The notes beneath the pieces are model-generated. The model saw only the letters and a program-made list of their open reading frames with translations. It searched no databases and was not told where the DNA came from. A stretch of 64,000 nucleotides of DNA from assembly GCF_025869515.1 (NCBI RefSeq), contig NZ_JAOZVR010000016.1:29762-93761 (forward strand), given 5' to 3'. Positions 9,400 through 50,286 of this stretch are shown here, one piece after another (positions within the stretch are counted from its first letter, which is position 1; the number at the start of each line of letters is the position of its first letter). Source of the stretch: Ferrovibrio sp. GTDB taxonomy: Bacteria; Pseudomonadota; Alphaproteobacteria; Ferrovibrionales; Ferrovibrionaceae. Position numbers and translations under genes: made by a program.

Positions 9400-9420
9400 G
9401 GCCGACGATTCTGTAATCCG

Positions 9421-28842: not shown

Positions 28843-28932
<90 letters not shown>

Positions 28933-34330: not shown

Positions 34331-34446
34331 CCGACGCCGCCCACCTAATTAGAAAAGCCGAGTGATAATGTTCCATGTGCCAGTGCCGCATCCTGCTTAA
34401 TCGCCAAGTCGATAATTAACCATTTCTCTCTATCTGTCTGATTCTG

Positions 34447-34474
34447 TTGACAAATTAGCCTGATTTGATATACT
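34447..34474 (+). promoter_or_regulatory. Strong sigma70 promoter upstream of the recombinase gene
   Basis: TTGACA (34447-34452) and TATACT (34469-34474) are separated by 16 bases in AT-rich DNA. Transcription should start near 34481, about 30 bases before the recombinase ATG at 34511. The -35 element is perfect, and the -10 differs from TATAAT at one position. Confidence 0.75.
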
Positions 34475-34510
34475 ACTTATGCGGGTATTTTAAGCGAAAA
34501 TGAGGCTAAA

Positions 34511-35086
34511 ATGGCAGGCAAACAAGCCAAAATCTTAACAAGCGGCCAGTTGCGCCTGGCCGTGGCCGAAGCAGGCCGCAGCCGGCATGGCCGGCGCGAT
34601 CAAGCCATGCTGCTGCTGTCGGTCAAAGCCGGGCTACGCGCCGGCGAGATCGCCGGCCTGACATGGCCAATGGTCGAGACCTCGGACGGGCATCTTGGCG
34701 ACCGCATCGAGCTGCGAGACGGGATCGCCAAGATGGGCAGCGGTCGCACGATCCCGATGCACCCCGATCTGCGGCAGGTTCTGATGCGGCTGCGACGGCA
34801 CCGTGGCCCGAGCGGGTATGTCATCGAATCCGAGCGCGGCGGGCCACTGCGGGCCAGCAGCGTGGTGAACTGGTTCAAAGCATTCTACGGCGAACTCGGC
34901 TTCGCTGGTTGCTCGTCCCATTCGGGGCGGCGGACTTTCATCACCCGGGCCGCCCGGCTGGTTCACAGGGTTCGAGGCAGCCTGCGGGATGTGCAGCAGT
35001 TGGCTGGGCATCGCTCAATCGAGCAGACCCAGCGGTATATCGACGGCGATAACCACGCCAAACGCCGCCTGGTGGCCTTGGTCTAA
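34511..35086 (+). CDS. Tyrosine recombinase/integrase, catalytic domain only
   Basis: A 191-residue site-specific recombinase. All active residues are seen: R43 (GLRAGEIAGL), K74 (IAKMGSGRTIPM), H137 and R140 (SHSGRRTF), H167 (LAGHRS) and the nucleophile Y176 (TQRYID). The N-terminal arm-binding and core-binding domains of phage integrases are missing, so it is a minimal recombinase of the kind often found on plasmids and integrative elements in alphaproteobacteria. It has its own strong promoter. It does not abut the tRNA (5.6 kb away), so it may belong to a second insertion inside the island. Confidence 0.92.
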   Translation: MAGKQAKILTSGQLRLAVAEAGRSRHGRRDQAMLLLSVKAGLRAGEIAGLTWPMVETSDGHLGDRIELRDGIAKMGSGRTIPMHPDLRQVLMRLRRHRGPSGYVIESERGGPLRASSVVNWFKAFYGELGFAGCSSHSGRRTFITRAARLVHRVRGSLRDVQQLAGHRSIEQTQRYIDGDNHAKRRLVALV

Positions 35087-35212
35087 TCAGTCATATGCGT
35101 AACTGGCCGGAAGATTCTGGCCAGGGTTAGTAACGGCAAGCCGGAACGAGCTGATCCGGTGTGAAGCCGCAGTTCCAATCAGCTCCCTCAATCGAAAATC
35201 TGGAGTGATGTC

Positions 35213-36214
35213 ATGCGTGGACCAATTCGGTCGCCGCGGATCGCGGCCCTATGCGTGCTGGGTAAGCGCGCCCATAGAGTATTCGTCAACAAACCCAGGA
35301 GCGAACTGCTGATCGCAGCCGCAACTGCCATCGCGGAGGACACCGCATGGCAGAACCTGGATGCCATGCTGTTGCCCGGTGCCTATTTCCGGCTCTCCAC
35401 ATATATCGGGGACAAGAAACACCCCACCCGGATCAGGCTGCTCGCCAAGGAGTCCTTCATGCCTGCCGTGAGGCGGGCGGCGGCGAGCCTGGCCGATACC
35501 TCACCAGGTAGCCTTTTGGTCTTCGGAGCCGACTCAGCCTCGCCCCGACGCTGGGAGTTCGGCGACCAGCTTTGCATAGGTGTTGGCTCGGATGGGATCG
35601 CCGGTCTCGCCCGGAAGGTCATTCCGTCCAATCCCGACACCATCCACTGCAAGCGGGTCTATGTCCCCGCCCAATCGGACTATTCCTCGCCCCATCGCTT
35701 CGTGACCCTGCCGAGCGGCCACAAGGCAGTGCTCAATTCCTGTTTCGATATGTTCGGAATTTGCGACGACCCCGTCATGCTGAAAAAGCGCGGATCGCCG
35801 ATCCGGGATTTATGGCTCCCGAATGGCAAATGCCCAAGGGTCGAGGAAGCTGGCTTCAAGCCACTCCGCGAACAGGCGCTCCAGGATTGGCAGGCCCTGC
35901 TCGATGAGCACCGTCCTACCCTCGCTCTCGCCGCCATCCATGCTTTCAAGCTGCCGGGGCGGGATGGCTATTGGCAACGGCATGGCCTGGCGGTGGCGTC
36001 TGCTGCGCTTCAAGGCGGTCTGGCTGTCGGGGCGGCGCATTTTGAAGAGAAGCTGCCCCAAGCCAACCAATCGCCCCTGGCAGCTATGAATGTACCCCGT
36101 GAGGCTTTGGCAGAGGGACCGAAACGAGGTCCGTATCGGTTACAGCCGCTCGCCGCCAAAACAATTCAGGTCGGAAATCAAACCGCCCTGCTGCGCCTCT
36201 ACGGCGCTGAGTAA
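35213..36214 (+). CDS. Nitrilase/CN-hydrolase-like protein, accessory island
   Basis: A 333-residue soluble protein. The spacing of DGIAGLARKVIPS (K135) and KAVLNSCFDMFGICDD (C177) recalls the Lys and Cys of the nitrilase superfamily Glu-Lys-Cys triad. E80 in RLLAKESFMP or a nearby acid could supply Glu, although the expected PE motif is not obvious. The C-terminal third (ALAAIHAFKLPGRDGYWQRH) is unlike classical nitrilases. It starts at ATG 35213 after GGAGTG. It lies after the recombinase and ahead of small accessory genes, a layout common on plasmids. The fold guess is tentative. Confidence 0.5.
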   Translation: MRGPIRSPRIAALCVLGKRAHRVFVNKPRSELLIAAATAIAEDTAWQNLDAMLLPGAYFRLSTYIGDKKHPTRIRLLAKESFMPAVRRAAASLADTSPGSLLVFGADSASPRRWEFGDQLCIGVGSDGIAGLARKVIPSNPDTIHCKRVYVPAQSDYSSPHRFVTLPSGHKAVLNSCFDMFGICDDPVMLKKRGSPIRDLWLPNGKCPRVEEAGFKPLREQALQDWQALLDEHRPTLALAAIHAFKLPGRDGYWQRHGLAVASAALQGGLAVGAAHFEEKLPQANQSPLAAMNVPREALAEGPKRGPYRLQPLAAKTIQVGNQTALLRLYGAE

Positions 36215-36311
36215 CCCTCTCTAGTCCACCCAAAAACCCGGAAGTCTCCGCGCCCGCCTCGGCTGGCGCCTGCGCTCCCCTATTGCCCATCGCAACCGAG
36301 AAGGAGATCAC

Positions 36312-36518
36312 ATGATCGAGCGTCCTGTTCATATCCGCCGCATCGTCGACCACGGCAGCGTCGTATCGCTGCTGGGCCAATATGACGATGACGGAACTCC
36401 AGCCCGCATCACCGTGGATCACCGCCCATTTGTCCGGTTCTGGCAGGACTGGGCTTCGGCGGGGCATCCGCAGCCCGTGATGCACGATGCCGACGAAGCC
36501 ACGCTCCGGTTTGAGTGA
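36312..36518 (+). CDS. Small hypothetical protein
   Basis: A 68-residue protein (ATG 36312 after GAAGGAGAT) with a compact, mixed-charge sequence including YDDDGTPARITVDHRPFVRF. It is the first of five closely spaced small genes on the plus strand. No family recognised. The ribosome binding site and clean operon spacing (7 bases to the next start) support it as real. Confidence 0.65.
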   Translation: MIERPVHIRRIVDHGSVVSLLGQYDDDGTPARITVDHRPFVRFWQDWASAGHPQPVMHDADEATLRFE

Positions 36519-36525
36519 GGCCGCC

Positions 36526-37320
36526 ATGAGCATCGAACCCAATATTGAAACAACGCCGGGCCTAGTCATCCGGGCAGTCTTGAGTATCAAAGACAAGGGG
36601 CAGTCTTTCCATATCCGGATCGAACCGCAGGGTGATTCGGTAAGTGTCGCATCGCTCTGTCGCCGGGCCTGCCTCTATGCCTGGTCGCTGCCGCAGTTTG
36701 AGGCAGGTGATTGGGCGGCGGCCTTTCTGGCAGCCGCCAAACCACAGAGGGCTGAAGACAGCCTCAGTGACGGAGCCCATTTCGCGCTTTGCAGTCATTG
36801 GTGGGACCAGGGCCAGCTCGATTTCCGGTATGAAGTTACAGCGGCAGAGGGTGAGTTGGTCATCAAGGCTTGGCGCAGAGATACCTCGGCTCCGGCATAC
36901 CGGCTCTCACTCGCCTTCGTTGGAACACTCGAAGAATTCACTGCTTTCGCAGGACTTGAACCACCGGCTCCGGTCCAGCGGCGCTACCTGGCGCTTTTCC
37001 AGGGTCCGGAGACCGAGCTGTTCATTCTGGCCTTCGATGGCACCGCTGAAGAAGCCGACGAACTGGACAATCGCCTGGAGCGTGCGCGGCATTTGAAGCT
37101 GCTGGTCACGGGCCTGGTGATCTCGGCATTAGGTCCGATTTTTGACCTCGGTGCCGAGAGCATCCATCTCGCCCTGGATCAGCTTTTCAACCGCTTCCCG
37201 CCTCGGAGGCCATTTCCAGATCACGCGTCTGAGGCGCCCACCGGCCCACCACCTCTTTCAACGCCCCCGCCAAGCCTGCTGACACCACCTGCTGGCAGTG
37301 CAAAGGACGGTGCGTCATGA
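36526..37320 (+). CDS. Hypothetical protein with Pro-rich tail
   Basis: A 264-residue protein starting at ATG 36526. The N-terminal 100 residues (VIRAVLSIKDKGQSFHIRIE, then WDQGQLDFRYEV) look like beta strands. Residues 165-225 are helical and acidic (ELFILAFDGTAEEADELDNR) with a modestly hydrophobic stretch, LLVTGLVISALGPIF. The last 40 residues are Pro-rich (GPPPLSTPPPSLLTPPAG). It overlaps the next gene by four bases. No known family recognised. Confidence 0.65.
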   Translation: MSIEPNIETTPGLVIRAVLSIKDKGQSFHIRIEPQGDSVSVASLCRRACLYAWSLPQFEAGDWAAAFLAAAKPQRAEDSLSDGAHFALCSHWWDQGQLDFRYEVTAAEGELVIKAWRRDTSAPAYRLSLAFVGTLEEFTAFAGLEPPAPVQRRYLALFQGPETELFILAFDGTAEEADELDNRLERARHLKLLVTGLVISALGPIFDLGAESIHLALDQLFNRFPPRRPFPDHASEAPTGPPPLSTPPPSLLTPPAGSAKDGAS

Positions 37321-37505
37321 ATTCATCTCGTAAAGGCATGGTCACCCTCGCCGAAGCCGCGCAGGTGGTGCTCGACCGCTGGAGCCGCGGTGACCTGGCC
37401 GCAGCGGTCCGAGAGCTGGATTCGGCGCTCCGGCAATATCGTCACGGCCAGGGCTCCGACCAACCGGCGCAGGATCAAGAGCGAGGCCATCATGACCGTG
37501 GATGA
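37317..37505 (+). CDS. Small hypothetical protein
   Basis: A 62-residue protein that overlaps the gene before it (ATGA) and runs 14 bases into the one after. Helical start (VTLAEAAQVVLDRWSRGDLA, residues 9-28) and a charged, disordered end rich in Gln, Asp and His. The overlapped starts suggest translational coupling. No family recognised. Confidence 0.5.
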   Translation: MNSSRKGMVTLAEAAQVVLDRWSRGDLAAAVRELDSALRQYRHGQGSDQPAQDQERGHHDRG

Positions 37506-37719
37506 CCTCGCTGAACTCCTGGAGGGCGTACCGCTCCGCGCCGAAATCCTGGTGTTGGCGCCGGACGACCGCAATACCGCTTACCGGATTATCAATGTTC
37601 GGGTCTCCAATCCTCGCGCCCAGCGTCACCGGCCAACTTTCCTCTACCTGGTGCTGGAGACGGAAGGCCACCCCGTCTCCCGACTGCGGCTGCTCCGCCG
37701 CCGTCCATTTCGTCCGTAG
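37492..37719 (+). CDS. Small hypothetical protein
   Basis: A 75-residue protein from ATG 37492 beginning MTVDDLAELLEGVPLRAEIL, with a basic C-terminus RLRLLRRRPFRP. It overlaps the end of the previous gene by 14 bases. The order of short accessory genes here resembles plasmid and integrative-element modules that carry DUF3768. No family recognised. Confidence 0.6.
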   Translation: MTVDDLAELLEGVPLRAEILVLAPDDRNTAYRIINVRVSNPRAQRHRPTFLYLVLETEGHPVSRLRLLRRRPFRP

Positions 37720-37801
37720 TCGCGCTTAACCCACCTTCAACGCCAATCCATCAGTGCCGCCTGGACCAACCACCCGGCCGCGCCACAGGAGACTCTTGCC
37801 C

Positions 37802-38164
37802 ATGTCGAACACACCGACCGATCGCGAAGATTCGGCTGAACAGTCCCAGTGCATTGCCAAACTCAATGACGGCTTCCGCACAAGCGGCGGCATCGGGGGG
37901 CGATTTATGATGACTGCCGGCGTCCAGGCGCTCGACCCCATTCATGTGGCCGAACTATGTCGCCTGGTGATCCGGTTCGACGCGTTCACCGAGGACAATG
38001 ATCCCTATGGCGAACATGACTTCGGGAGCATCGAATACAGCGGCCAAAAGTTTTTCTGGAAAATTGATGCCTACGATAAGTCGTTGGAGTTTGGCTCGCC
38101 AGATCCGACCGACCCGGCTGTCACGACCCGCGTGCTGACCCTCATGTTGGCGCAGGAATACTGA
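37802..38164 (+). CDS. DUF3768 protein
   Basis: A 120-residue protein. The family signature is clear: IAKLNDGFRTSGGIGGRFMM followed by TAGV, then DNDPYGEHDFGSIE and FFWKIDAYDKSLEFGSPDP, ending TTRVLTLMLAQEY. ATG 37802 has GGAGAC upstream. DUF3768 is a common marker of plasmids and integrative elements in alphaproteobacteria; its function is not known. It lies convergent to the XRE regulator with seven bases between the stops. Confidence 0.92.
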   Translation: MSNTPTDREDSAEQSQCIAKLNDGFRTSGGIGGRFMMTAGVQALDPIHVAELCRLVIRFDAFTEDNDPYGEHDFGSIEYSGQKFFWKIDAYDKSLEFGSPDPTDPAVTTRVLTLMLAQEY

Positions 38165-38171
38165 GCCGGCG

Positions 38172-38555
38172 TTAGCGCCTGGTTGCCGCTTCAGAAATCG
38201 CCCGCGTCAACTCGGCAATATCCGCCACTGTGACTGCGGCGTTTCCTTCCAACAGGATGCGGAATTTCTCGACCAGTTCGGCCCGGGCCTTCTGTTGGGC
38301 TGTTTGCTTCGGCACATCCGCCCAATCGAAAAGGTCGATAAAGCCGACCTTCAGTGCCTCGGCAATCTCGAACACCGTCGATAGACGTGTCGAGGAAAAC
38401 CCGCGTTCGATGTTCGATACGGTATCGACGCTCTTCCCGATCATCTCGGCCAGGTCTTCCTGACTGAGCTTTCGCTCCTTACGGAGTGCCTTGATCCGGC
38501 GGCCCAACGCCTTTTGGCGGGCCTCGGCCGGGGTCGGTTTTTTACGTTTGTCCAT
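38172..38555 (-). CDS. XRE-family helix-turn-helix regulator
   Basis: A 127-residue protein. The HTH occupies residues about 17-75 (LGRRIKALRKERKLSQEDLA, KSVDTVSNIERGFSSTRLST, IAEALKVGFIDLFDW). The C-terminal 50 residues form predicted helices, perhaps for dimerisation. It lies on the opposite strand to the accessory genes and might control the element. The long leader between it and the membrane-protein gene (38556-38783) could carry its promoter. Confidence 0.9.
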   Translation of the reverse strand: MDKRKKPTPAEARQKALGRRIKALRKERKLSQEDLAEMIGKSVDTVSNIERGFSSTRLSTVFEIAEALKVGFIDLFDWADVPKQTAQQKARAELVEKFRILLEGNAAVTVADIAELTRAISEAATRR

Positions 38556-38783
38556 GCCCGAATGTCGTTTCGGGCCGCTGCATTAACCACCGAAGGAAAC
38601 TACGGAAATGAAGCTTGACCGGACACATACTACGAGGATAATTGCGACTACTTGGAGAGGAACCGCCAAAACCCGGTATTTCCCTCCGAATCGAGGCCCG
38701 CCGGAGACACAACCATCGGCACATAACCGCGCCGGACCACATCTTCCGTAACCACAGCCACCTACCGCCGAAAGAGGCATCCC

Positions 38784-39395
38784 ATGACGAATCCCGATTC
38801 CGTCACCGCTCCCGCTTTGCCCGAATGGGGCAGCATTCCGATCTACCGCAAGCTCTGGCTGGTGGGGATCATCAACGCGCTTGGCGTCGCCCTCTCCTTC
38901 GTAAACGTCCTGGGCTCCCTGGCACTCCTGATACCGGGGTTGATCCTGCTCTGGATGGGGCCGGTCTATAAGCGGAAGAAAGGTGCCGTGGTTCTGCACC
39001 GTACCCGAGATAAGGTGACCTTCTGCATCATCCTGGTCATTGTTCTCGGCTGGAACTTGATGCGGCAGGGTGCTGGAGGTGAATTCAGCCTGACCTCCTC
39101 GCTTCCGACCTGCGAAAGCCGAACTGCTCAAAGCAGCCTGAAAGACGCGGTGAAGAATTCGCCGAAGGGCCGGCGTATGCAGCTCGAAATCCAAGAGATC
39201 GTCACGGCAGGCCCGACAAGCAAGCCCTGGCTCTGGAATAGCCAGGACGCCGTAGTGAAGGGGCCGGCTGGCGACGTGCAAATCTACCTGTGCGAAGCGG
39301 AAGTCATCACCAATGGCGGGAGGCAGCCCGTGCTCTATGGCATCTCTTGGGCCGACAAGGCCAAGGGGCGATGGGTTGTTGAGGCGCGGTTCTAG
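38784..39395 (+). CDS. Membrane protein with a periplasmic C-terminal domain
   Basis: A 203-residue protein with two or three helices in the first 100 residues (IYRKLWLVGIINALGVALSF, NVLGSLALLIPGLILLWMGP, then VTFCIILVIVLGWNLM) and a soluble domain of about 95 residues beginning GGEFSLTSSLPTCESRTAQS, whose two Cys residues (in LPTCES and YLCEAE) could form a disulfide. It precedes two predicted exported proteins. No family recognised. Confidence 0.7.
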   Translation: MTNPDSVTAPALPEWGSIPIYRKLWLVGIINALGVALSFVNVLGSLALLIPGLILLWMGPVYKRKKGAVVLHRTRDKVTFCIILVIVLGWNLMRQGAGGEFSLTSSLPTCESRTAQSSLKDAVKNSPKGRRMQLEIQEIVTAGPTSKPWLWNSQDAVVKGPAGDVQIYLCEAEVITNGGRQPVLYGISWADKAKGRWVVEARF

Positions 39396-39464
39396 CCTGC
39401 GCTTGCTCAGTTTGCCTCATTAGATCGCCGATGCAGGATCCAGCTTAAACGAGGGGGAATCTTC

Positions 39465-40640
39465 ATGAAAAGGCAGGCTTCGGCGATCACTACGCGATGT
39501 GCAACAGCGAGACTAACGCTGAAGTTCGCCAGGATGGTTACGATCGTATGTGCTATCTGTGTGGCAGTTCCGGCCAGTGTCGCTCAAGCACAAGACTGGT
39601 GGGCCAGTGTGTCGGGAGGTTTTCGCCGCGAAGCACCGGTGGCGCGGCTGCCGGCGGCGACGGCCCCTTCACACCTTTCTGCCGCTCCAGCGGATCAGAA
39701 ATTAACGCATCGTGATCCAGCAATTGCCGCCGGCTTCGATGCCCTGCTGCGCCCTCGCTACACTCGCATAGTAATGATCTCAAAGGACCGCAACGTCATT
39801 TATGAGGGCTATGCAGAAAACTGGCTCAAGAAATCGACACCGCTTGGCCTTTCCATATCGAAAAGCCTGACAGCCCTGGCGGTGGGGAAAGCCCTGTGCA
39901 GCGGCGCGATATTCTCACTGCAACTCCGAACAGACGCGATCCTGCCCGCCCTGGCCGGCACATCCTGGGGCAATGCCACCATCGAGCAGATCCTGCTCAT
40001 GCAAAGCGGCTCTGCCGAGGATGGCCCCGCGCACACAGGTTGGCAGACTGAACCGGTCGCGGTTGAGCATCGCGGGATATACAACGGCCGCATGACCAGA
40101 GATTTCATCGAAATGATGCGCCGGCATGATGCGCGGCAATTCAAGCCCGGCGAGAAATACAATTACAACAACTACGATACGCTGGTACTGGGCTTTCTGG
40201 TCGAGGCGGCAACCGGCCGCAAGTTCCCTGACTTTTTCAATGAGATGATTTGGCAGCCGGCCGGCCCCCAACAAGGTGGCGCTTGGATACAGAACAACTC
40301 GGGCCAGACCTCGACCTATAACGGCTTCAGCGCCACACCTGAAGACTGGCTGCGGATCGGCCATTTCGTCATTGAGTCGATGCGCAATCCAGACGACTGC
40401 TTTGCGCGCTACCTAATGACCGCTGCCAAGCAGATGCAGCGCACCCATATTCCGACTCGCTGCTACGGCTATCAGACTTGGAGCTGGTGCAACGAAGACA
40501 ATTTTCTGTTTGTCGGCTATGGCGGGCAGTATCTCGTTATTACACCGAAACGAGGGGTCGTGATGTACGTCCACCAGGCCAGTAACACCAACGACGCCGC
40601 CATGATGGCGCTGTATCAGCGGGCTCTTAAGCTGCTCTAA
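39465..40640 (+). CDS. Exported serine hydrolase, class C beta-lactamase/penicillin-binding-like
   Basis: A 391-residue protein with a leader to about residue 42 (VTIVCAICVAVPASVAQA). The beta-lactamase class C fold motifs are present: SxxK as SISKS near residue 130, YxN as KYNYNNYDT near residue 228, and a late GYGGQYLVI (the KTG/HxG position) near 350. The length is typical of EstB/PBP4-like hydrolases rather than resistance enzymes, and the substrate is unknown. RBS GAGGGGG precedes ATG 39465. It is followed 20 bases later by a ClpP-fold protein, likely in the same transcript. Confidence 0.82.
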   Translation: MKRQASAITTRCATARLTLKFARMVTIVCAICVAVPASVAQAQDWWASVSGGFRREAPVARLPAATAPSHLSAAPADQKLTHRDPAIAAGFDALLRPRYTRIVMISKDRNVIYEGYAENWLKKSTPLGLSISKSLTALAVGKALCSGAIFSLQLRTDAILPALAGTSWGNATIEQILLMQSGSAEDGPAHTGWQTEPVAVEHRGIYNGRMTRDFIEMMRRHDARQFKPGEKYNYNNYDTLVLGFLVEAATGRKFPDFFNEMIWQPAGPQQGGAWIQNNSGQTSTYNGFSATPEDWLRIGHFVIESMRNPDDCFARYLMTAAKQMQRTHIPTRCYGYQTWSWCNEDNFLFVGYGGQYLVITPKRGVVMYVHQASNTNDAAMMALYQRALKLL

Positions 40641-40660
40641 GATTGGAGATACCCCAGGTC

Positions 40661-41698
40661 ATGAAACCTTGGATGCTCCTGATCATCGCCTTGGCCCTTG
40701 TCAGCCCCCTCGCCTATGCCGATGAAGTTATGACCTTTGAGGGACAACCCCCGCCCAAACCGGCCGGAATATTCGGGACAGCCTGGACCATTTATGCGAA
40801 CGGCGAGATCGACGACGATGTCGCCGAACGATTTCGGGGTTTTCTGAAGCAACACCGGATTCCGAAGGGGTCGAGCCTCGTCCTGAACTCTCCGGGCGGC
40901 GATATCCTGGCGAGCATGGAGCTTGGTCGCCTGATCCGCGAACACGCGCTCACTGTCCATATTGGCACCAGGGATTCTACCCGCATCATGAATCCCGGCT
41001 TCTGTCTCAGCGCCTGTGCCCTGGCCTATCTTGGCGGGCGATTCCGGTTCATCGCAGATAATTCGGCCTACGGGGTCCATCGTTTCTACCGGGTCGGCGA
41101 CGGAGCGCAGAACGATGACGAGGCTCAGATCCTATCCGCCGCCATCGTCGCATATATCCGCGAAATGGGCGCCGATCCGGCACTGTTCTCCGAGATGGTC
41201 GCTGCAGGAAGCGACGATATGAATATGCTCAAAGAGGCAAAACTCCTGACCTATAAGGTCGTCAACAATGGCGTCCTGGACCCGAAATGGTCGATCGAGA
41301 GCATACCGGAAGGTCTATATCTCCGGGGTCAGCAGGAGACCATTCGCGGCATGGAGAAGATCATCTTCGGCTGTGACAAGGGCATCCTTCACTTGATGGG
41401 GATATTTAGCGGCAACAACGACACTCTCGGTGCGAGGGCCGCTTCCTTGGTCATCGATCAAGAACAAATCCGCCTGGAGAGCCGCCAGGTCAGCGCCCCA
41501 CAAATAATCAACGGCTTGGAGAATGTGACGATCACTCTCGATGAGCGGCTTCTGTCGAGAATTAGCAAAGCAAAAACCATCGGTCTCATGCTGCAGTTCA
41601 GCTACGACGCCCCGACATTTGTTGGCATCCGGTCACTCGATTTTACAGGTGGTGCCGCCCTGCTGCCGGGCTTTGTCAAAAGCTGCCAGGTGCAATAG
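40661..41698 (+). CDS. Exported ClpP-fold protein (COG3904-like)
   Basis: A 345-residue protein with a leader (MKPWMLLIIALALVSPLAYA). Residues about 45-175 read as the ClpP/crotonase fold: LVLNSPGGDILASMELGRLI, then CLSACALAYLGGRFRFIADN with Ser in SACALAYLGG at the catalytic-serine position and GVHRF supplying a likely catalytic His. The C-terminal 170 residues have no clear family. Related periplasmic ClpP-fold proteins of unknown role occur in rhizobia. It follows the serine hydrolase closely. Confidence 0.75.
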   Translation: MKPWMLLIIALALVSPLAYADEVMTFEGQPPPKPAGIFGTAWTIYANGEIDDDVAERFRGFLKQHRIPKGSSLVLNSPGGDILASMELGRLIREHALTVHIGTRDSTRIMNPGFCLSACALAYLGGRFRFIADNSAYGVHRFYRVGDGAQNDDEAQILSAAIVAYIREMGADPALFSEMVAAGSDDMNMLKEAKLLTYKVVNNGVLDPKWSIESIPEGLYLRGQQETIRGMEKIIFGCDKGILHLMGIFSGNNDTLGARAASLVIDQEQIRLESRQVSAPQIINGLENVTITLDERLLSRISKAKTIGLMLQFSYDAPTFVGIRSLDFTGGAALLPGFVKSCQVQ

Positions 41699-41839
41699 AG
41701 CAACAGTGCTTTGTCTCTAAAATAATTGAACCATAGTCACTAGTGCATTAGCCTGTGCATTGCTGCCGAACAGAAATTTCTGCAGGAACACCACACCTGG
41801 TAGAAATGATACTACCCGCTTTAGAGAATCTGCAGCACA

Positions 41840-42760
41840 TCATTGCGCCACACTTCCGTCTTGGCTTTTCGGGTAGCGGGCAGCGAAACCTTCCGGACGG
41901 AGCTCAATATCCCCGAAGGCTACCTTGGCCCCGATCTCGAGGATCGGCCGGCTGTATCCATAAGCCTGCTTTCCAGTACCGTTCTGGAAAAAGCGTCCGT
42001 GAGGATCGACCATGACATAGGAACGCTCCATGTCCGCGTTATCCTCAATCGTCATCAAATGTTGGAAGGACCGATGACGGTCGACGAAGGCCCGAAATGC
42101 ATTCGTATCGATGATCAAGGCATCGGACAGAACTGGGAGCACACGCATAATCTTCCAGCGATTAGGGCGGAGCCTGAGGATTAGATTCGACAGATTCTCG
42201 CCAGCATTCGCGGAGCTAACCACTGTATTGATCTTGACCACTATGTTGGGGTTAATGCTTCTCACTTGAGCAACAATGTCCATGGCGTCATCGCCGGACA
42301 CGCTTGTTCCAGTCGGACCGACCCGACCGATGGTCCTGTTGGTCTCTTGATTGGGGGAATCAACTGAGATTCCGATCATGTCCAGGTGCTCGGCGGCCGC
42401 CACGATCACGTTGGGACGGCTACCGTTCGTGATCAAAGAGACGCGAAATCCCAGCGACTTTGCCTGGCCTGCAATCTCCGTCAGACGGCCTCCGAGTAAA
42501 GTGGGCTCACCGCCAGCAAGACTCAGCCTCACCCCGCGCCAATGCAGGTGCTCTCGCAACGGGGATGACGGATTCTCCGGGTCAAAAAAGCTGTAAAGCG
42601 ATGACAGCAGACGGCCTGTCTCGCGCTTGTCCTTCCACAACTCTCTTTTGGAAGTTGCCCCCTCCCAGGCAGCAAAGCAGTAGCCGCACCGAAAGTTGCA
42701 AGGCTCGGTAACGTGCCAGTTAATAACCAATTCTTCAATTTCCGGGACAAAATGGTGCAT
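41840..42760 (-). CDS. Prokaryotic viperin (radical SAM, ddhNTP synthase type)
   Basis: A 306-residue radical SAM protein. The cluster motif CNFRCGYCF (C21, C25, C28) follows INWHVTEP, a sequence seen in bacterial viperins. LSLAGGEPTLL binds SAM. The later blocks VVKINTVVSSANAGENLSNL, RPNRWKIMRVLPVL, FVDRHRS, then DNADMERSYVMVDPHGRFF and PILEIGAKVA match animal viperin in order and spacing (its KINSVINRFNVEEDM, VRWKVFQ, RH, DSYLILDEYMRFL). Known relatives convert CTP, GTP or UTP to 3'-deoxy-3',4'-didehydro nucleotides that poison phage RNA polymerase. Which nucleotide this one uses is not decidable from sequence by eye. Confidence 0.88.
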   Translation of the reverse strand: MHHFVPEIEELVINWHVTEPCNFRCGYCFAAWEGATSKRELWKDKRETGRLLSSLYSFFDPENPSSPLREHLHWRGVRLSLAGGEPTLLGGRLTEIAGQAKSLGFRVSLITNGSRPNVIVAAAEHLDMIGISVDSPNQETNRTIGRVGPTGTSVSGDDAMDIVAQVRSINPNIVVKINTVVSSANAGENLSNLILRLRPNRWKIMRVLPVLSDALIIDTNAFRAFVDRHRSFQHLMTIEDNADMERSYVMVDPHGRFFQNGTGKQAYGYSRPILEIGAKVAFGDIELRPEGFAARYPKSQDGSVAQ

Positions 42761-42780
42761 TGGGCGGCCCTTTCTGCGGT

Positions 42781-42798
42781 TCGAGTTGTTTCACTCGA
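42781..42798. promoter_or_regulatory. Inverted repeat in the viperin divergent promoter region
   Basis: TCGAGT (42781-42786) and ACTCGA (42793-42798) with a 6-base spacer lie 20 bases upstream of the viperin ATG, in the 169-base gap to the divergent gene. It is a candidate operator. Only the symmetry is seen. Confidence 0.35.
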
Positions 42799-42929
42799 CC
42801 ACAGCCCCCTCCTGCCCCTCCACGAAACAAGCCGTACAGCGGCGAACTAGCCGGCGCCTGCGACCTGATTCTGTTGGTGTACGGCTCGTTTCGTTTCCAA
42901 TTGCGACGACAAACGCCATACTGACCCGG

Positions 42930-44042
42930 ATGGAAACATTTCGGGCACAGGCAATGGGAACTGTTCCTTCCTACGAGGCACTCCTTCTTGAGCTTCAGCA
43001 ATCTTTCGGTCAGAGCCGCCTCCAAACGGTGCAGAAGCGTCGCTTTGCAGCCCGCGACAAACGGCTTTCCGAGCACAACGAACTGTTTGTTGAAATCCTC
43101 GGTGGAATTTTCGATGCCATCGACTACGAGCACGATCCCGAATTTCTGAACGACCTCAGCGTTTCCGCCGAGGAGATATTCCAATTCTATAGTGTCGTGG
43201 AGAACAATCTCCGCACCTACGGCGCCACCGACAGGCAAGTCGCGTGGCACCTTCTCAGCTACGTATTCGCACCGGGGTTCGCCCGCAAATATGCATTCTG
43301 GAGCTTGGTGGCATACGTCGCACCCGGTATGGCCGGAGGCGATCTCTGGTTCGTACCGCGCCCGTCTCCGTCAGACCCCACTCGCCTTCGCCTTCCCGTT
43401 CAAGTTGTTGTTGAGTGGTGGGAGGACCTGTTGAACTGTCGCCTCGAAGATATTTGGGATGCGAGTGATCATGATGAAGACGCACGTGATTGGATTCGAA
43501 ACCTTCAATACTGGCGCGCCGGAAAACTTCCCCAACCTAATACAATTGAAACGGCCTTCGCTAAAATGCGTCGGTTCAAATATCTCGGGACATTTCGAGA
43601 TGAAATTTCTACCTCACTAGAGACTAGGTATCAGAACGCCGTCTCCTTTGTGAAAGAGCATAAGGGTTTTGATGCCGCCAGGCTGATCCGCGAGATCCCA
43701 TCGACACCATTTCAGGTATTCCAGGCCGGACTGACAGGGACAGCAGACGAGGGTCAAAAGGAGGCTTTCATCGCAGCTGTCACCGAACGTTGGGGAGAGC
43801 CGACTACTGCAACAGTCCGGCGCCGCTTCCTACTTGCCCGAGTCGTGCAAGACTGCCATATCCGACTTGCTGCTCTGATCTGCCCAAAAGTCGACCCCGA
43901 TATTGCCGGCCCGGTGGCCAATAAGGTGATGCAGATTTGGGCTCTATTAGAGGAGACATACAGGCTCACTGTCGCAGCGCAGGTGGGGTGCCGAGCGGCA
44001 ACAAAAAACTTTTGGACACTCGGCTTGATACGAATAACTTAA
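42930..44042 (+). CDS. Uncharacterised protein divergent to viperin
   Basis: A 370-residue soluble protein from ATG 42930 (METFRAQAMGTVPSYEALLL). It appears helical throughout, with Trp- and Phe-rich patches (FWSLVAYVAPGMAGGDLWFV and VVVEWWEDLLNCRLEDIWDA). No P-loop, HTH or nuclease motif is seen, and no membrane segments. The frame extends upstream to 42696 over the viperin gene, but that part has no ribosome binding site and is out of character. Divergent placement with a short shared promoter region suggests a functional link to viperin. I recognise no family. Confidence 0.7.
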   Translation: METFRAQAMGTVPSYEALLLELQQSFGQSRLQTVQKRRFAARDKRLSEHNELFVEILGGIFDAIDYEHDPEFLNDLSVSAEEIFQFYSVVENNLRTYGATDRQVAWHLLSYVFAPGFARKYAFWSLVAYVAPGMAGGDLWFVPRPSPSDPTRLRLPVQVVVEWWEDLLNCRLEDIWDASDHDEDARDWIRNLQYWRAGKLPQPNTIETAFAKMRRFKYLGTFRDEISTSLETRYQNAVSFVKEHKGFDAARLIREIPSTPFQVFQAGLTGTADEGQKEAFIAAVTERWGEPTTATVRRRFLLARVVQDCHIRLAALICPKVDPDIAGPVANKVMQIWALLEETYRLTVAAQVGCRAATKNFWTLGLIRIT

Positions 44043-44197
44043 AAGAATATCGGGGAGTAAAAACCATCCAAAAGAAATTCAGTTAGCCACACGCCCGCCC
44101 TAAATCATCTGTCAGTATATTTTGCACAAAATGTACTTAGCGGGGACCGAACTGAATGTCATACTGAGATGGATTTTCCATTCTAGGGAAACGATAG

Positions 44198-44770
44198 CTA
44201 ATATTTCTGCCGAAATTCTTGCATAGAGATTGTCGATGGCGAACCCCAACGCCAACCATTTTTAGGCCTCACGCGAATTGGCGACAAATGCTGTGGCCGG
44301 TCAATAGCTACTGATGGTTTCACGCGCCTTCTCACGAGTAGCTCTTTGATGTTATAGCCATTCAGGAGCACCCTTTCCAAACTCGTCGAGATGCCGATTT
44401 TCCTGACGGACTTCTGAGCTTTATCGGCACGAGCGAGGCCGCTGTCAAAGCCGCCTTGATCGGCAATGTCGCTCAGCTTCAATGGCATGGCAGTAAGGTC
44501 GTCGATCTTGTCGGCGATCGGATGAATCACCAGGCCTTCGCGCTGTATCTTACCGGTGATACATAGCAGCTGGGAGATTAGGACGGCATGGCGGTATTGT
44601 GGGAATACTTCCGGCCAGATCACGATGTCCCCTATCTCGGTTTCGTCTTCGCTGATGGCGAAGATTCCGCCGCACGTAGTGCTGGGTTGCTGTCTGAGCA
44701 GTATCAAGCCGCCAGCTTGATCGAGCGGTCTCGGGCAGGATTTGCTAGGCCATGGGCCTAGACGATACAC
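44198..44770 (-). pseudogene. Fragment of error-prone DNA polymerase DnaE2
   Basis: The frame encodes about 190 residues whose middle, GGIFAISEDETEIGDIVIWP, VFPQYRHAVLISQLL and GKIQREGLVIHPIADKIDDL, matches the C-terminal OB-fold region of DnaE2 (family form: GVIFLTLEDETGxANVIVWP...GxLQREGxVIHVVAxRLxDL). The polymerase, PHP and helix-hairpin parts (over 800 residues) are absent on either side. It is therefore a decayed terminal fragment. It lies right after the viperin partner and suggests a recombination junction. Confidence 0.72.
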
Positions 44771-45036
44771 AATGGCTTTAGCTGCGGACGCAACAGGGCG
44801 AGGGGTTTAAGAGTTGGGCTAATTCCCCGCTAATCCTGCACCACATGCTCGACAATGGTCCGGCTGGGTAAGCTGACGTCGGACTGAAGTCTGTTTCAAC
44901 AACTGATAGATTATTGCTCTGCGCTGTGATGCTGCTGCCAAACTCGAACAGTACCGCCGGCTTCTTTCCCAGGGCCCGAATTGCAGAGTGGGCTTGGCGA
45001 CGGTTGAGTTATTGGAGTTCAGCAACCATGTTGCAA
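44771..45036. other. Decayed intergenic stretch
   Basis: Short broken frames only. A minus-strand frame (44819-45067) shows no recognisable family. Base composition is mixed. It probably contains decayed mobile DNA between the dnaE2 fragment and the chemotaxis genes. Confidence 0.4.
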
Positions 45037-45531
45037 TTATGTTCCATTTGTTTGATATATCCCGCAAAGCAGCATGTTGATTTTTGTTCCATCGTTTGAA
45101 AGTGGCAAGATCAGGCGCTCAAAGTGCCAGTATGTTTGATCTCTGGCTAACAAAAAAACATGGTCACAGCGCGGGCGGCGATCAACGAGAACATCGCGAA
45201 AGTGGCTCTCGATTAATTCGGAAACCTCAGCGGTTTTGATGTCTTGCGGCGACTTTCCAGTTAGATATTCGCCGTGAATCTCATCCACGTTACTGCCCGA
45301 GAGCCGGAAGCGAAAATATGGCTCTCCCTCGAATACATCGATAAGAAAAATGTTAGGCAGTAAGTCATGGAAATCTAGTGGGTCAATGTCGGCACGGGAA
45401 GGGAATCTCCGCTCCCCGCGCTTAGTGTCCCAATATTCAAATAGCCGCAGCAAACTTGCTTTGCAGCGATGATGATTAACTGCTGAGCACCGCGCACAAA
45501 GCGTTGCTGTACCTGCTTCAAGGGGTGACAT
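45037..45531 (-). CDS. PAS_5-family protein with N-terminal CxxC-x7-C
   Basis: A 164-residue soluble protein. LLRLFEYWDTKRGERRFPSR, DIDPLDFHDLLPNIFLIDVF and PYFRFRLSGSNVDEIHGEYL are the PAS_5 hallmark. The N-terminus carries CARCSAVNHHRC, a Cys triad also found at the same place in the paralogue at 59483-59971. It starts 18 bases after cheW and is the third gene of the MCP-cheW-PAS operon, so it may feed a small-molecule or redox signal to chemotaxis. No output domain is attached. Confidence 0.85.
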   Translation of the reverse strand: MSPLEAGTATLCARCSAVNHHRCKASLLRLFEYWDTKRGERRFPSRADIDPLDFHDLLPNIFLIDVFEGEPYFRFRLSGSNVDEIHGEYLTGKSPQDIKTAEVSELIESHFRDVLVDRRPRCDHVFLLARDQTYWHFERLILPLSNDGTKINMLLCGIYQTNGT

Positions 45532-45549
45532 CGTTGATGCTTCTTGCTT

Positions 45550-46050
45550 TTATGCTGCGGCCAGCGAAACGTCTTCGAATTCTGGCGCGCGACCGCCAAC
45601 CAGAAGGTCGAGGTCGAGCAGTGACACCATACGGGTATCTCGTGGCAGAAGTGCGGTGAGAAAGGCATTCTCCGCTGCCATGCCGGTTTGTGGCACCGGC
45701 TGAAGTTCGCCATTGGCGACAGACATGATGTCCGATACCGCATCGACAAGCAGGCCATAGAAACCCGCTGCCGCTTCGACCACAATTACCACATGGGTGG
45801 CGGTCGGCGTGCTGCGCTCGGCGCCGAGTCGGATGCGCAGATCGTAGATTGGTACGACCTGGCCCCGAAGATTTATGACACCGCGGACGGACGGTGGGCA
45901 GTTAGGCAGCGGATTCTCCACTGTCCAACCGCGGATCTCACGGACTGCCAGGATATCGATGCCATATTCCTGACCGGCAGCCGCAAAGGTGAGATATTCG
46001 CACACGGCATTGCCTGCGGTGCCAGCTTGGGAAGCGATGAGCGTGTCCAT
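45550..46050 (-). CDS. cheW: CheW-type chemotaxis coupling protein
   Basis: A 166-residue adaptor linking receptors to CheA. The SH3-like CheW fold is seen in EYLTFAAAGQEYGIDILAVR, PPSVRGVINLRGQVVPIYDL and FYGLLVDAVSDIMSV. It starts on the last base of the MCP stop codon (TGATG), so the two are translationally coupled. A short acidic tail (EFEDVSLAAA) ends it. Confidence 0.93.
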   Translation of the reverse strand: MDTLIASQAGTAGNAVCEYLTFAAAGQEYGIDILAVREIRGWTVENPLPNCPPSVRGVINLRGQVVPIYDLRIRLGAERSTPTATHVVIVVEAAAGFYGLLVDAVSDIMSVANGELQPVPQTGMAAENAFLTALLPRDTRMVSLLDLDLLVGGRAPEFEDVSLAAA

Positions 46051-47903
46051 CAGAATTCTGCCCAGTTGCCGTCTTCGGTCTTGACCGCCGCATTGCCCTG
46101 CGCGGATGGAGTCTTCATCGCTGCGGCAGTTTTGACGACTGGTCGCTTATCGGCCACGACTTTCAGCGGTGAGCGCTGAGCTCCTGTCGAGGTGGCGCGC
46201 GGCGCAGAATAAGCCGCATTGCCCTGATCCTTTGTTTTGTATCGCTGCACCAGCTGTGCCAGTTCCTCAGCCTGGCCCGAGAGTGCCTGGGCCGAGGCCG
46301 AGGTCTCTTCCACCAGGGCGCCGTTGCGCTGGGTCATTTCATCCATACTGCCAACGGCCGTGTTGATCTGCTCCAGGCCGGTGGCCTGCTCGCGACTAGC
46401 GGCAGCAATCTCGGCGACGATATCCGACACTTTCTTGATCGCACCAACAATTTCGGTTAGCGAGCCGCCGGCTTGATTGACTAAGGTTGCCCCGGTCTTC
46501 ACCTGGGTATTCGAGGCTTGGATCAGCGCCTTTATGTCTTTGCTAGCATTGGCCGAACGCTGGGCGAGCGCCCGCACCTCCTGTGCCACCACCGCAAAGC
46601 CCTTGCCTGCCTCGCCGGCTCTCGCGGCCTCCACGCTGGCATTCAGCGCCAGCAGGTTGGTCTGGAAGGCGATTTCGTCGATCAGGCCGATGATATCGCT
46701 GATCTTCTGTGCGCTCTCCTCGATCTGGTTCACTGCGGTGACCGCATTGGCCACGACACTGCCGCCCTTCTCGGCGGTGTCACGCGCCACGGTCGCTAGC
46801 TGGTTGGCTGCCTGGGCGTTGTCGGCATTCTGCTTCACCGTCATGGTAACCTCGTGCATTGAGGCGGCGGTTTCCTCAATCGAGGCCGCCTGGCTTTCCG
46901 TCCGGCTCGCCAGATCCTGGCTGCCGGTGGAAATCTCGGCTGATGCCGCCGCAATGGTTTCCGAGGCTTCACGGATACCGCCGATAATATCAGCCATTGC
47001 ATCGACCAGATCGTTGACGCCGGTGCACAGCGAGCGGATTTCGCCGGCCCTGCCATCCAGATCGATCCGTTGGGTCAGGTCGTTCGCCTTGGTGGCATCG
47101 ACCACCACCTGCACCTGCTGCACGGCGAGCTGGGTCATCTGTGCCAGTTTGGTCTGCGACGTGATGTCGGTGGCATATTTCACCACCTTATAAGGCCGGC
47201 CATTGGCATCCATGATCGGGTTGTAGCTGGCCTGAATCCAGACTTCCTTACCGCCCTTGCCGATGCGCTTGTACTGGTTGGCGTCGTATTCGCCACGGCC
47301 CAGCTTGGCCCAGAATTCACGATAGTCGGTACTTTCCCGATAGGTCGGCTCGACGAACATGCTGTGGTGTTTGCCTTTTACCTCGTCCAGCGTATAGCCG
47401 AGCGTATTCAAGAAATTCTCGTTGGCATGCAGGATTTTTCCAGTGAGATCGAATTCGATCACTGCCTGCGCCTTGTTGATCGCGGCGAGCTGGCCCTCGT
47501 AATTGGCCATCAGCATCTTCTGTTCGGTGACGTCGGTGGCGTACTTTACGACCTTATAAGGCTTGCCGCGCTTGTCGAAGATCGGGTTGTAACTGGCCTG
47601 AATCCAGACTTCCTTACCGCCTTTGCCGATGCGCTTGTATTGCGCGGCATCGTATTCGCCGCGGCCGAGCTTGTCCCAGAACGCCCTGTACTCAGCGCTG
47701 GCGCGATAGGCCGCATCGACGAACATGCTATGGTGCTGGCCCTTCACTTCATCCAGCGTGTAGCCCAACGCTTTGAGAAAATTCTCATTGGCATGCAGGA
47801 TTTTCCCGGTGAGATCGAATTCGATCACCGCCTGGGCTTTGTTGATGGCATCGAACTGCGCTCGCAGATCACTAGTCGCTGACGCACTGGAAAACTGGAA
47901 CAT
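46050..47903 (-). CDS. Soluble methyl-accepting chemotaxis protein with two tandem PAS domains
   Basis: About 617 residues with no membrane segments. Residues 19-140 and 141-262 are two near-identical PAS domains with PAC motifs (YKRIGKGGKEVWIQASYNPI in both). A helical connector and the signalling domain follow, with the conserved hairpin [20 protein letters not shown] and GKGFAVVAQEVRALAQRSAN. The protein ends in DGNWAEF, an xWxxF tail of the type that tethers CheR/CheB. ATG 47903 follows AGGAGAGCCGAG. PAS domains of this Aer-like kind often bind heme or FAD; the ligand here is unknown. Confidence 0.94.
   Translation of the reverse strand: MFQFSSASATSDLRAQFDAINKAQAVIEFDLTGKILHANENFLKALGYTLDEVKGQHHSMFVDAAYRASAEYRAFWDKLGRGEYDAAQYKRIGKGGKEVWIQASYNPIFDKRGKPYKVVKYATDVTEQKMLMANYEGQLAAINKAQAVIEFDLTGKILHANENFLNTLGYTLDEVKGKHHSMFVEPTYRESTDYREFWAKLGRGEYDANQYKRIGKGGKEVWIQASYNPIMDANGRPYKVVKYATDITSQTKLAQMTQLAVQQVQVVVDATKANDLTQRIDLDGRAGEIRSLCTGVNDLVDAMADIIGGIREASETIAAASAEISTGSQDLASRTESQAASIEETAASMHEVTMTVKQNADNAQAANQLATVARDTAEKGGSVVANAVTAVNQIEESAQKISDIIGLIDEIAFQTNLLALNASVEAARAGEAGKGFAVVAQEVRALAQRSANASKDIKALIQASNTQVKTGATLVNQAGGSLTEIVGAIKKVSDIVAEIAAASREQATGLEQINTAVGSMDEMTQRNGALVEETSASAQALSGQAEELAQLVQRYKTKDQGNAAYSAPRATSTGAQRSPLKVVADKRPVVKTAAAMKTPSAQGNAAVKTEDGNWAEF
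47118..47849 (-). repeat. Tandem duplication of a 366-base PAS-encoding unit
   Basis: Two 122-codon units lie head to tail inside the MCP gene. At DNA level they share long identical tracts (e.g. GTGAGATCGAATTCGATC at 47443 and at 47809, exactly 366 bases apart). The high identity indicates a recent duplication or ongoing gene conversion. Confidence 0.85.
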
Positions 47904-47962
47904 CTCGGCTCTCCTGTTCAGTCTCCGTCGGCAGGATGCCAATGGATTGGTATCTCATATAT

Positions 47963-48124
47963 CTATTTGTGGTCGATTAAGAGGTAGTTAATTGATAATG
48001 CATGGTTGATTCGTATCGACTCGCTGTTCCGACTCAGCTTCCAGCAGAAGCCCCCAATCTGTGGCAGGCCTCCATACGAGCCGACGAGCAGGCAGGCCAT
48101 GAAAAGAGCGCTATTAGCGATCAT
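47963..48124 (-). CDS. Possible small exported protein
   Basis: A 53-residue frame with a strong ribosome binding site (GGAGGAAACGGCC before ATG 48124). The start MIANSALFMACLLVGSYGG looks like a leader or lipoprotein-like signal; the rest (WKLSRNSESIRINHALSINY) is unremarkable. No family recognised; it could be a chance frame. Confidence 0.35.
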   Translation of the reverse strand: MIANSALFMACLLVGSYGGLPQIGGFCWKLSRNSESIRINHALSINYLLIDHK

Positions 48125-48450
48125 GGCCGTTTCCTCCGAACCAGGAATAATGTTTGAGGATTCAGGCTATCCGTGCGCCAGCAAAGGTCAGCGCTCATCT
48201 GCCCGCGATCCTCGGCTGTGCGGACACAGACGACACAGGCGGATGAATTACAGCCGCGTCACGACGTTACCCTTGATGAACTCGAACAGGCTCACGCCGG
48301 GCCGGAGACCTGCCTCCAGGATAATCAGGCGCTTGGCAATCCCTGGGGGGGCTTCCAGCTCAGGTTAAATTCCGATTATGGATGGTCACGCACCATTGCG
48401 TGGGAAGCGGTTTCCTCTGTTGAATAGCGCGGTACGACTTCCGAGTGATT
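48125..48450. other. Intergenic region before the sensor kinase
   Basis: No recognised gene. A minus-strand stretch of 37 codons ending at a stop near 48253 (protein-like, GIAKRLIILEAGLRPGVSLF) has no start and may be a gene remnant. It should also hold the kinase promoter. Confidence 0.4.
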
Positions 48451-50286
48451 ATGCCCGATTCTAGCCCCCATCGTGTCTTCTTCCCTCCGGACCCCGGAAG
48501 TGTCAGGGCTATATCGACTACCATCGATATCCCGGCATCGGCTTTTCATGGCAGTTTCCAAAAAATATTACTGATCTATGCCGGAACCACGGTCTGCTTC
48601 CCCAGCATCACCTGTTTGCTACTGTGGCAGCAACTGCAGGATCACTGGGTCCTTGCCTGGTGGCTGCTGCACATGCTGGCCGTCGTCATCATTGTCATCG
48701 ACTGGTATATCCGCCGTCAGCAGGGCGCCGCAGCGGCGCCGCGCTGGCAGGGCCCGGTCGACATCATGGTCGCCGGCTTTTCCGGTTTGGTCTGGGGTGC
48801 CGGCGCTCTCGGCATGCCGCAGATCGATACAGCCAGTCAGCTGTTGCTGGTGGCGGTGATCGCCGGCGTCATCGGCGGTTCGGCCCCGGCGCTGGCCCTG
48901 ATGCCGGCGGCTGGTGCCGCCTTCATCGTCAACGTGGCTTGGCCCTATGCGGTATATTTCCTGACGCAAGGCAGCGTGATCGGTTATGGCATGGCCGCGC
49001 TGATCGTCGGATATGTTGGCGCGATGATCGTCGCCAACCGCGTACTGCACAGCATCATGGTGCGGAACTGGCGGCTGAGCAGTGAAAACACCGCGCTCTA
49101 CGACCGCATCCGCAAGGCGCAGGACGAACTGCTCGACATCGCCGACAGCAGCGAAGCCTTCGTCTTTTTCGATCATGCCGGCCGGATGCTGCTCTGGAGC
49201 CGCCGCTTCCCCGCCCTGCTGGGCCTGGCCGAAAGCGACCTGAAGCGGCATGGCGCGCTGCAGCCGCTGCTCGAACGCGCCGGCCTGCCGCCCGACCTGA
49301 CGACATCGCATGACGCCGTGGCGGATGATGCCGGGCGCCCCGTGCTGCCGATGCCGAATGGCGGCTGGGCTCGAGCCAGCCTGCGCGACCTGCCGCATGG
49401 CGACCGCGCCCTGTTCTTGGTCGACGTCACCGAGCAGCAACAGGCCAGCAGCCAGCTGCAGAGCCAGAATACCCGGTTGGAGGAACTGTTCCGCGAAGTC
49501 TCGTCGGCGCGCGACGCCGCCCTGCGCGCCAGCCAGGCGAAATCGACCTTCCTCGCCAATATGAGCCACGAACTGCGCACGCCGCTGAATGCCGTGATCG
49601 GTTTTTCTGACATCATCCGGCGCAAACTGTTCGGATCCGTCTCGCCAAAATACGATGAATATATCGACGACGTTTATAACAGCGGCTGTCATCTGCTCGG
49701 CATTATCGACGATATCCTCGACCTCGCTCGCATCGAGGCCAACCAGATCGTGGTGCAGGAAAGCCGGGTCGATCTGGCAGAAGAAATCGCCACCAGCATC
49801 CGCCTGGCCAGCCAACAATTCGGACCCGCTTCGGCAAGCATCACGGTTGCCGTGCCCGACGACCTGCCGGCGCTGCATGCCGATGCACGGCTGGTGCGCC
49901 AGATCCTGATCAACCTGGTCGGCAACGCCCTGAAATTCTCCCCCGGCGGCCTGCCGGTCGAGGTCGGCGCCAGGCTGGAGCCGGCCAGCAACGAGATCCA
50001 GCTCTGGGTGCGCGATTACGGCATCGGCATCGCCAAGCAGGACCAAGCCCGCATCTTCGATCCCTTCGAGCAGGCCGGAGCTCACCTGAGCCGCAATTTC
50101 GGTGGCGTCGGCCTCGGCCTGTCGCTGGTGCGCGCCTTCGTCGTGGCGCATCAGGGCCGCCTTGCCATCGACAGCGAACCCGGCAAGGGCACCCTCATCA
50201 CCGCCAGCTTCCCCGCGACTAGGACAGTTAACATGAACGATCGAGGCGAAGATACCTCTCGATTTGCTCCAAGACGCGCACAATAG
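48451..50286 (+). CDS. Membrane sensor histidine kinase
   Basis: A 611-residue kinase. Five or six hydrophobic helices span residues about 30-205, without a large periplasmic domain. A PAS-like segment (LDIADSSEAFVFFDHAGRML) and a coiled coil follow. The dimerisation box FLANMSHELRTPLNAVIGFS has the phosphorylated His373; the ATPase part shows ILINLVGNALKFSPGG (N box) and RDYGIGIAKQ / GGVGLGLSLVRAFVVAHQG (G boxes). There is no receiver domain and no adjacent response regulator. The last 59 bases overlap the convergent marR gene. ATG 48451 was used instead of GTG 48445. Confidence 0.9.
   Translation: MPDSSPHRVFFPPDPGSVRAISTTIDIPASAFHGSFQKILLIYAGTTVCFPSITCLLLWQQLQDHWVLAWWLLHMLAVVIIVIDWYIRRQQGAAAAPRWQGPVDIMVAGFSGLVWGAGALGMPQIDTASQLLLVAVIAGVIGGSAPALALMPAAGAAFIVNVAWPYAVYFLTQGSVIGYGMAALIVGYVGAMIVANRVLHSIMVRNWRLSSENTALYDRIRKAQDELLDIADSSEAFVFFDHAGRMLLWSRRFPALLGLAESDLKRHGALQPLLERAGLPPDLTTSHDAVADDAGRPVLPMPNGGWARASLRDLPHGDRALFLVDVTEQQQASSQLQSQNTRLEELFREVSSARDAALRASQAKSTFLANMSHELRTPLNAVIGFSDIIRRKLFGSVSPKYDEYIDDVYNSGCHLLGIIDDILDLARIEANQIVVQESRVDLAEEIATSIRLASQQFGPASASITVAVPDDLPALHADARLVRQILINLVGNALKFSPGGLPVEVGARLEPASNEIQLWVRDYGIGIAKQDQARIFDPFEQAGAHLSRNFGGVGLGLSLVRAFVVAHQGRLAIDSEPGKGTLITASFPATRTVNMNDRGEDTSRFAPRRAQ

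Follow-up and report, generated by a model that had tools for sequence, protein, structure and literature searches.

A prokaryotic viperin gene of Ferrovibrio sp. and its truncated ankyrin-family neighbor share a divergent promoter region with paired boxes

Prokaryotic viperins (pVips), which belong to the radical SAM enzymes, are represented by the profile NF038283 and the PADLOC models PDLC02903-02905. Their chemistry was reportedly treated by Bernheim in 2021, and we know of no account of how bacterial viperins are switched on. Some viperins stand beside a kinase or an RNase toxin; one article, which also mentions the viperin chemistry of Bernheim 2021, names HicA and RelE as viperin neighbors (PMC10865869). 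The locus described here lies in a stretch of 64,000 nt from Ferrovibrio sp. (contig NZ_JAOZVR010000016.1, positions 29,762 to 93,761; hereafter “the window,” to which coordinates refer unless a locus is named) and likewise joins a putative effector viperin to a genetic partner. Instead of a kinase or toxin, however, this partner is a divergent, truncated gene of an ankyrin-repeat family, and the two genes share a promoter region with two copies of a 21-bp box. The divergent viperin-ankyrin pair is conserved in several Pseudomonadota, and its best reading is that of a defense unit in which the ankyrin protein would be regulator or sensor and the viperin the effector. A partner that shares boxes of fixed geometry, moves together with viperin among distant bacteria and has sensor-like repeats opens viperin switching to direct tests, for which one protein, one 21-bp site and a reporter would suffice. 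The differing viperin neighborhoods, with kinases or toxins in some and a putative regulator in others, would also become easier to explain.

The association itself has probably been catalogued already, because the PADLOC model “Ankyrin” (PDLC02908) is numbered beside those for pVip (02903-02905), TPR (02907), Csa3 (02909) and VakA (02911). The N-terminal domain (N-domain) of the window partner matches positions 1-344 of this model; the parts that follow, helical middle and ankyrin repeats, are missing from the window copy. The profile of MzaA from the anti-phage MZA system, which NCBIfam names as a sigma-70 family factor, matches the ankyrin repeats of the family at 34-37 bits (cut-off 800). 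Only these repeats are held in common, as no sigma domain was seen in the partner's family; MzaA might nevertheless be a precedent for ankyrin repeats on a defense transcription factor. Full-text searches of the open literature, outside which most subscription papers lie, turned up no report that pairs a bacterial viperin with an ankyrin protein, and one review that mentions both separately. As far as this coverage reaches, neither the box pair nor the truncated partner appears to have been described.

Judged by its sequence, the 306-residue open reading frame (ORF) is a genuine pVip, as the original prediction had proposed. A hidden Markov model search with NF038283 gave 309.5 bits (curated cut-off 180), PDLC02903 gave 290 bits, and the nearest solved structure is that of a viperin-like enzyme (7n7h, E 5.2e-20). 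Other radical SAM profiles remained at or below 40 bits with the exception of the eukaryotic viperin (82 bits), and no result spoke against the assignment; the viperin tree discussed below is built from viperins only, without other radical SAM families. The radical SAM cluster motif CxxxCxxC (Cys21, Cys25 and Cys28) and the predicted downstream sequence blocks were all found in an ORF of the predicted position, strand and length, and all 55 residues invariant across 20 other viperins, including these cysteines, are kept. The window protein thus resembles known pVips in sequence, cluster motif, length and invariant residues, and it is likely to make chain-terminating nucleotides.

Homologues of the facing gene were found to track viperin, in agreement with the prediction. 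A family-alignment scan of one genome per species (84,980 species) identified 31 loci, 15 of which carry a viperin gene divergently adjacent to the ankyrin gene. L048 is probably a sixteenth pair, split by a contig end: its contig starts 111 bp ahead of the ankyrin gene, and a viperin fragment in the same genome stops 41 bases short of another contig's end. No viperin was detected at E 1e-40 in the genomes of the other 15 loci. Four of the 31 (L069, L071, L072 and L073) match part of the N-domain only; they remain in the locus counts given here and were excluded from the tree and box tests. The background frequency of viperin is 4 in 398 Pseudomonadota genomes (E 1e-45; about 1%) and, for scores above the cut-off, 4 in 385 genomes from the class, with the window's own genome included in both of these overlapping samples. 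Among the six other viperin genomes in them, one (G555, locus L082) carries the ankyrin gene in divergent position. The remaining five lack it there, and in one of them the viperin lies on a 3.3-kb contig. In L082 (8013-12431), a VakA-like kinase lies on one side of the viperin gene and a full-length ankyrin gene on the other. The closest viperin without an ankyrin gene (L077, 52% identity) faces, in the same divergent place, a gene for a 120-residue HTH_31 protein (9637-9999, + strand). The 15 loci, L082 and the window make up the 17 pairs analyzed below; their start codons are 174-193 bp apart in 14 cases (193 bp in the window) and 215, 132 and 129 bp apart in the rest.

The gene in viperin's usual divergent position in L044 (8510-9499, - strand) encodes a protein of 329 residues that matches nothing in Pfam or PADLOC. 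In L063, from Acinetobacter, a 1293-residue DUF4365 protein, possibly a defense protein, is encoded divergently to the ankyrin gene (5870-9751, - strand). A plasmid search with the window protein returned four Acinetobacter records; in viral contigs, none of 44 pattern stretches was confirmed as an ankyrin-family relative, and phages yielded none.

The two genes also appear to have been inherited together. Viperin and N-domain distances are correlated over the 17 pairs (r 0.95, p 0.0001). On a quickly built N-domain tree with 29 rows, linkage to viperin requires 4 changes, compared with a mean of 9.1 after shuffling (0 of 500 shuffles as low). Viperins with the ankyrin gene do not cluster in a viperin tree of the same quick kind (21 rows), where the label takes 3 changes against a mean of 3.8 and 91 of 500 shuffles were as low; this is compatible with a partner that some viperins lost or never held. 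The pair seems to have been transferred between distant bacteria, since the Formivibrio copy clusters with the Acidocella copies in both trees, two of these three copies coming from metagenome assemblies. Both trees contain several long branches and are read without a root or an order of gain and loss.

The box is directional, 21 bp long (consensus GGGGGGTACGnnnnnTTTCAT) and present in two oppositely facing copies, each towards its own gene. In the window, where an inverted repeat had been noticed in the intergenic gap, these copies (Table 1) make up the main one; a smaller repeat beside the viperin start does not exceed chance on its own (9 of 100 shuffles as good). The weight matrix was trained on the 17 pairs, window included, so that counts among them are partly circular: the viperin-facing box was recovered in all 17, 55-63 bp from the start codon and with no more than 1 of 200 shuffles scoring as well; recovery of the partner-facing box succeeded in 15 (56-65 bp) and failed in L060 and L082. 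Outside the training set, all 12 loci, namely L048 and 11 that lack viperin, have the partner-facing box at 57-65 bp, with a score that none of 200 shuffles equalled in any locus; several of these loci are near relatives. A box facing the opposite way is retained as well in three of the viperin-less loci, L062, L067 and L068. None of four viperins without an ankyrin gene has a box at this level; the best, that of L081, was equalled in 9 of 200 shuffles. Because the box accompanies the ankyrin gene, the ankyrin protein is, we infer, the leading candidate for a box-reading factor. A global regulon was rejected as an explanation for the box: at up to one mismatch, its pattern, which overlooks some true boxes including the window's, gave 72 matches in 14 genomes (15 being the loci's own, counted by identical sequence) against 50 for a reversed control, with no clear enrichment away from ankyrin loci.

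The boxes also have a preferred spacing to putative promoters. On the ankyrin side, 26 promoters show a -10-like hexamer at 22 nt beyond the box, with a mean of 3.54 of 6 positions matching TATAAT, and the viperin side, tested separately, gave the same best offset (17 promoters, mean 2.47). Neither value was reached in 1000 letter shuffles. With near-duplicates removed, the means were 3.47 on the ankyrin side (19 promoters, 0 of 1000) and 2.46 on the viperin side (13 promoters, 2 of 1000); L051, a near-copy of L049, was left out of the offset test. At this offset the window has CATACT on the ankyrin side and no good hexamer on the viperin side. A sigma-70 scan of 42600-43100 found no promoter, and a sigma-54 promoter, considered by eye, was dismissed, its spacing not fitting the consensus. 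In seven of the 17 pairs (L046, L050, L053, L054, L056, L058 and L064), a small hairpin is present within the last 40 nt before the viperin start, compared with none of 26 on the ankyrin side. Its 3' arm often holds the likely ribosome-binding GGAG, and translational control is possible.

The partner differs from its earlier description as an uncharacterized 370-residue protein behind a 169-base promoter region. The divergent ORF ending at 44042 is present, and the first residue of its homologues corresponds to ATG 42954, by which the protein is probably 362 residues long and the gap 193 bp. The statement that it holds no known motif is borne out by Pfam and NCBIfam, neither of which gave a match, and contradicted by PADLOC, as PDLC02908 matches at 244 bits over positions 1-344 of 880. 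Its relatives, to which this model aligns end to end, are about 900 residues long and consist of the N-domain (about 345 residues), a helical middle and C-terminal ankyrin repeats. An initial length-limited protein search had found only the window's own protein and one 522-residue relative; the extent of the family was reached via Acinetobacter plasmid copies and then a second search (356 proteins, the best 120 listed; 7997 best candidates scored). The partner is 56% identical to the relative P0003, similarity stopping at 43997. No trace of the remainder was found in 43901-46000, and a family profile search of the assembly at E 0.001 gave a single match, to positions 1-344, with the ankyrin repeats absent. 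On this sequence evidence, the partner is neither a full family member nor a natural 370-residue family but a truncated derivative of a family already modeled in PADLOC, without the sensor-like C-terminal part. Its N-domain is all-helical, shows no recognized DNA-binding fold and is predicted to fold by itself (pLDDT 88.6). Since it keeps all 22 residues invariant among 28 relatives, the break would be recent or the N-domain still in use. The partner in the pair L064 (647 residues, profile positions 1-632) likewise stops before the ankyrin region.

Taken together, these features lead us to favor tentatively, at just under an even chance, a conserved two-gene unit in which viperin makes chain-terminating nucleotides and the ankyrin protein is its regulator, the ankyrin gene being cut after the N-domain in the window. 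The full-length protein would bind the box just upstream of each promoter through its N-domain, while the C-terminal ankyrin repeats would sense a phage cue. Both genes would then rise together, and viperin would make ddh-NTPs that halt phage transcription. The HTH_31 gene that faces the L077 viperin in the corresponding place speaks for a regulator in this position. A regulator or sensor role, among those suggested originally, would be consistent with the shared boxes; an immunity or effector role is conceivable too. The N-domain left in the window may continue to bind the boxes, and because the ankyrin repeats are lost, viperin expression would be uncoupled from its original signal, unless the partner is simply dead. 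A bolder and rather doubtful extension would make the ankyrin family a phage-sensing transcription switch with an unrecognized DNA-binding domain, which activates viperin and itself via the paired boxes as a bacterial counterpart of the inducible, interferon-like viperin control of animals; the window would then hold a sensor-less form with viperin permanently on or off.

Alternatively, the ankyrin protein might be a sensor or effector that targets viperin itself, the product of viperin or proteins of the phage, with a host factor reading the boxes for co-expression only. Ankyrin and helical repeats commonly bind proteins, and this scenario gains from the lack of a recognized DNA-binding fold in the N-domain and from the several viperin-less copies among restriction and Septu genes, which perhaps indicate a wider defense role. 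We nevertheless consider it unlikely, as the box follows the ankyrin gene across bacterial orders even where viperin is absent and is not enriched elsewhere in the 14 genomes, which would be unexpected for a general host factor. It is still less probable, and indeed improbable, that the inverted boxes act as an RNA hairpin (a leader or small RNA) controlling viperin instead of as DNA-protein sites. Long hairpins do form at the boxes of single sequences such as those of the window and L061, and the seven pairs named above have a further hairpin, next to the viperin start, that surpasses shuffled sequences. Most viperin-less loci, however, have one box only and hence no hairpin, and L060 and L082 retain the viperin-facing box alone; in addition, the consensus fold of the gappy alignment is weak (-1.63 kcal/mol, 6 pairs) and an Rfam search gave no match.

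For the window itself, it is quite possible, if short of an even chance, that the partner is a dead remnant and viperin effectively stands alone, or that the break is an assembly error. Over half of the partner's length is lost, a polymerase-like fragment lies beyond the break, and the assembly is a draft of 126 contigs. The full sets of invariant residues in both proteins, the N-domain predicted to fold alone and the presence of both boxes argue against a remnant, and these retained features are as compatible with a recent event as with continued use.

Table 1. Coordinates of the viperin locus and of neighboring features in the window.
Feature	Position	Strand	Basis
Full-length TmtA-family gene	29117-33538	-	PADLOC PDLC03968, 1689 bits; weak NOV_C and HATPase in Pfam
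Tyrosine recombinase, 191 residues	34511-35086	+	Catalytic half of XerC-type profiles only
Prokaryotic viperin (radical SAM), intact, 306 residues	41840-42760	-	NF038283, PDLC02903, invariant residues
Divergent promoter region, 193 bp	42761-42953		Start-codon spacing in 17 pairs
Viperin-facing box CCGCTGTACGGCTTGTTTCGT, 61 bp from viperin start	42822-42842	-	Weight matrix, 1/200 shuffles as good; located by pattern
Partner-facing box TTGGTGTACGGCTCGTTTCGT, 59 bp from ATG 42954	42874-42894	+	Weight matrix, 0/200 shuffles as good; located by pattern
CATACT, possible -10 hexamer (partner promoter), 22 nt beyond the box	42917-42922	+	Inferred from 26-promoter offset
Truncated ankyrin-family gene, 362 residues: N-domain to 43997, then unrelated short tail; without helical middle and ankyrin repeats	42954-44042	+	PDLC02908, homologue alignment
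ORF with C-terminal end of error-prone DNA polymerase, just beyond the break	44198-44770	-	NF004225 positions 958-1036 of 1047

The polymerase-like ORF was matched by NF004225 at 52.7 bits, below the cut-off of 939, and had no match in Pfam. A Tn3 origin of the N-domain and the boxes was dropped after hhalign and profile tests. It had been prompted by a single weak DUF4158 match, obtained with one of eight N-domain pieces (E 0.0011; 19.4 bits, below the cut-off of 27.4), and by the GGGG start of the box, which had been likened to Tn3 end sequences. The hhalign comparison of the N-domain with the N-terminus of Tn3 TnpA (DUF4158) gave probabilities below 1% both ways, and a Tn3 profile of three sequences scored the ankyrin family at best at 0.0 bits, compared with 3.4 bits for decoys. 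In the reverse search, one Tn3 sequence scored 3.0 bits (E 0.03) and the same sequence reversed 0.0. A link to retrons, prompted by PADLOC names near “Ankyrin” that resemble retron components, was dropped as well, PDLC02908 sitting beside TPR, Csa3 and VakA. RVT_1 occurs in 6 of the 16 genomes searched; in G762 and G767, the two in which it was placed relative to the boxes, it lies more than 100 kb from the box or on other contigs.

The location of the viperin locus downstream of a tRNA-Ser gene (28843-28932), a TmtA-family gene and a recombinase-like ORF suggests a defense island. The TmtA-family gene beside the tRNA is likely a second defense gene of the region, and the recombinase perhaps represents the remains of the island's integrase. 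A second copy of the tRNA-Ser end was not found in 28800-48500. A gene-order comparison over 10 genomes of the genus was dominated by chemoreceptor repeats. Defense genes also adjoin ankyrin-family genes without viperin: in L065 (1-9909), a type I specificity subunit, Septu PtuA and PtuB and a TmtA relative are located upstream, a type III restriction enzyme gene lies beside the ankyrin-family gene of L051 (5838-9233), and that of L070 (3435-5645) neighbors a type I specificity subunit.
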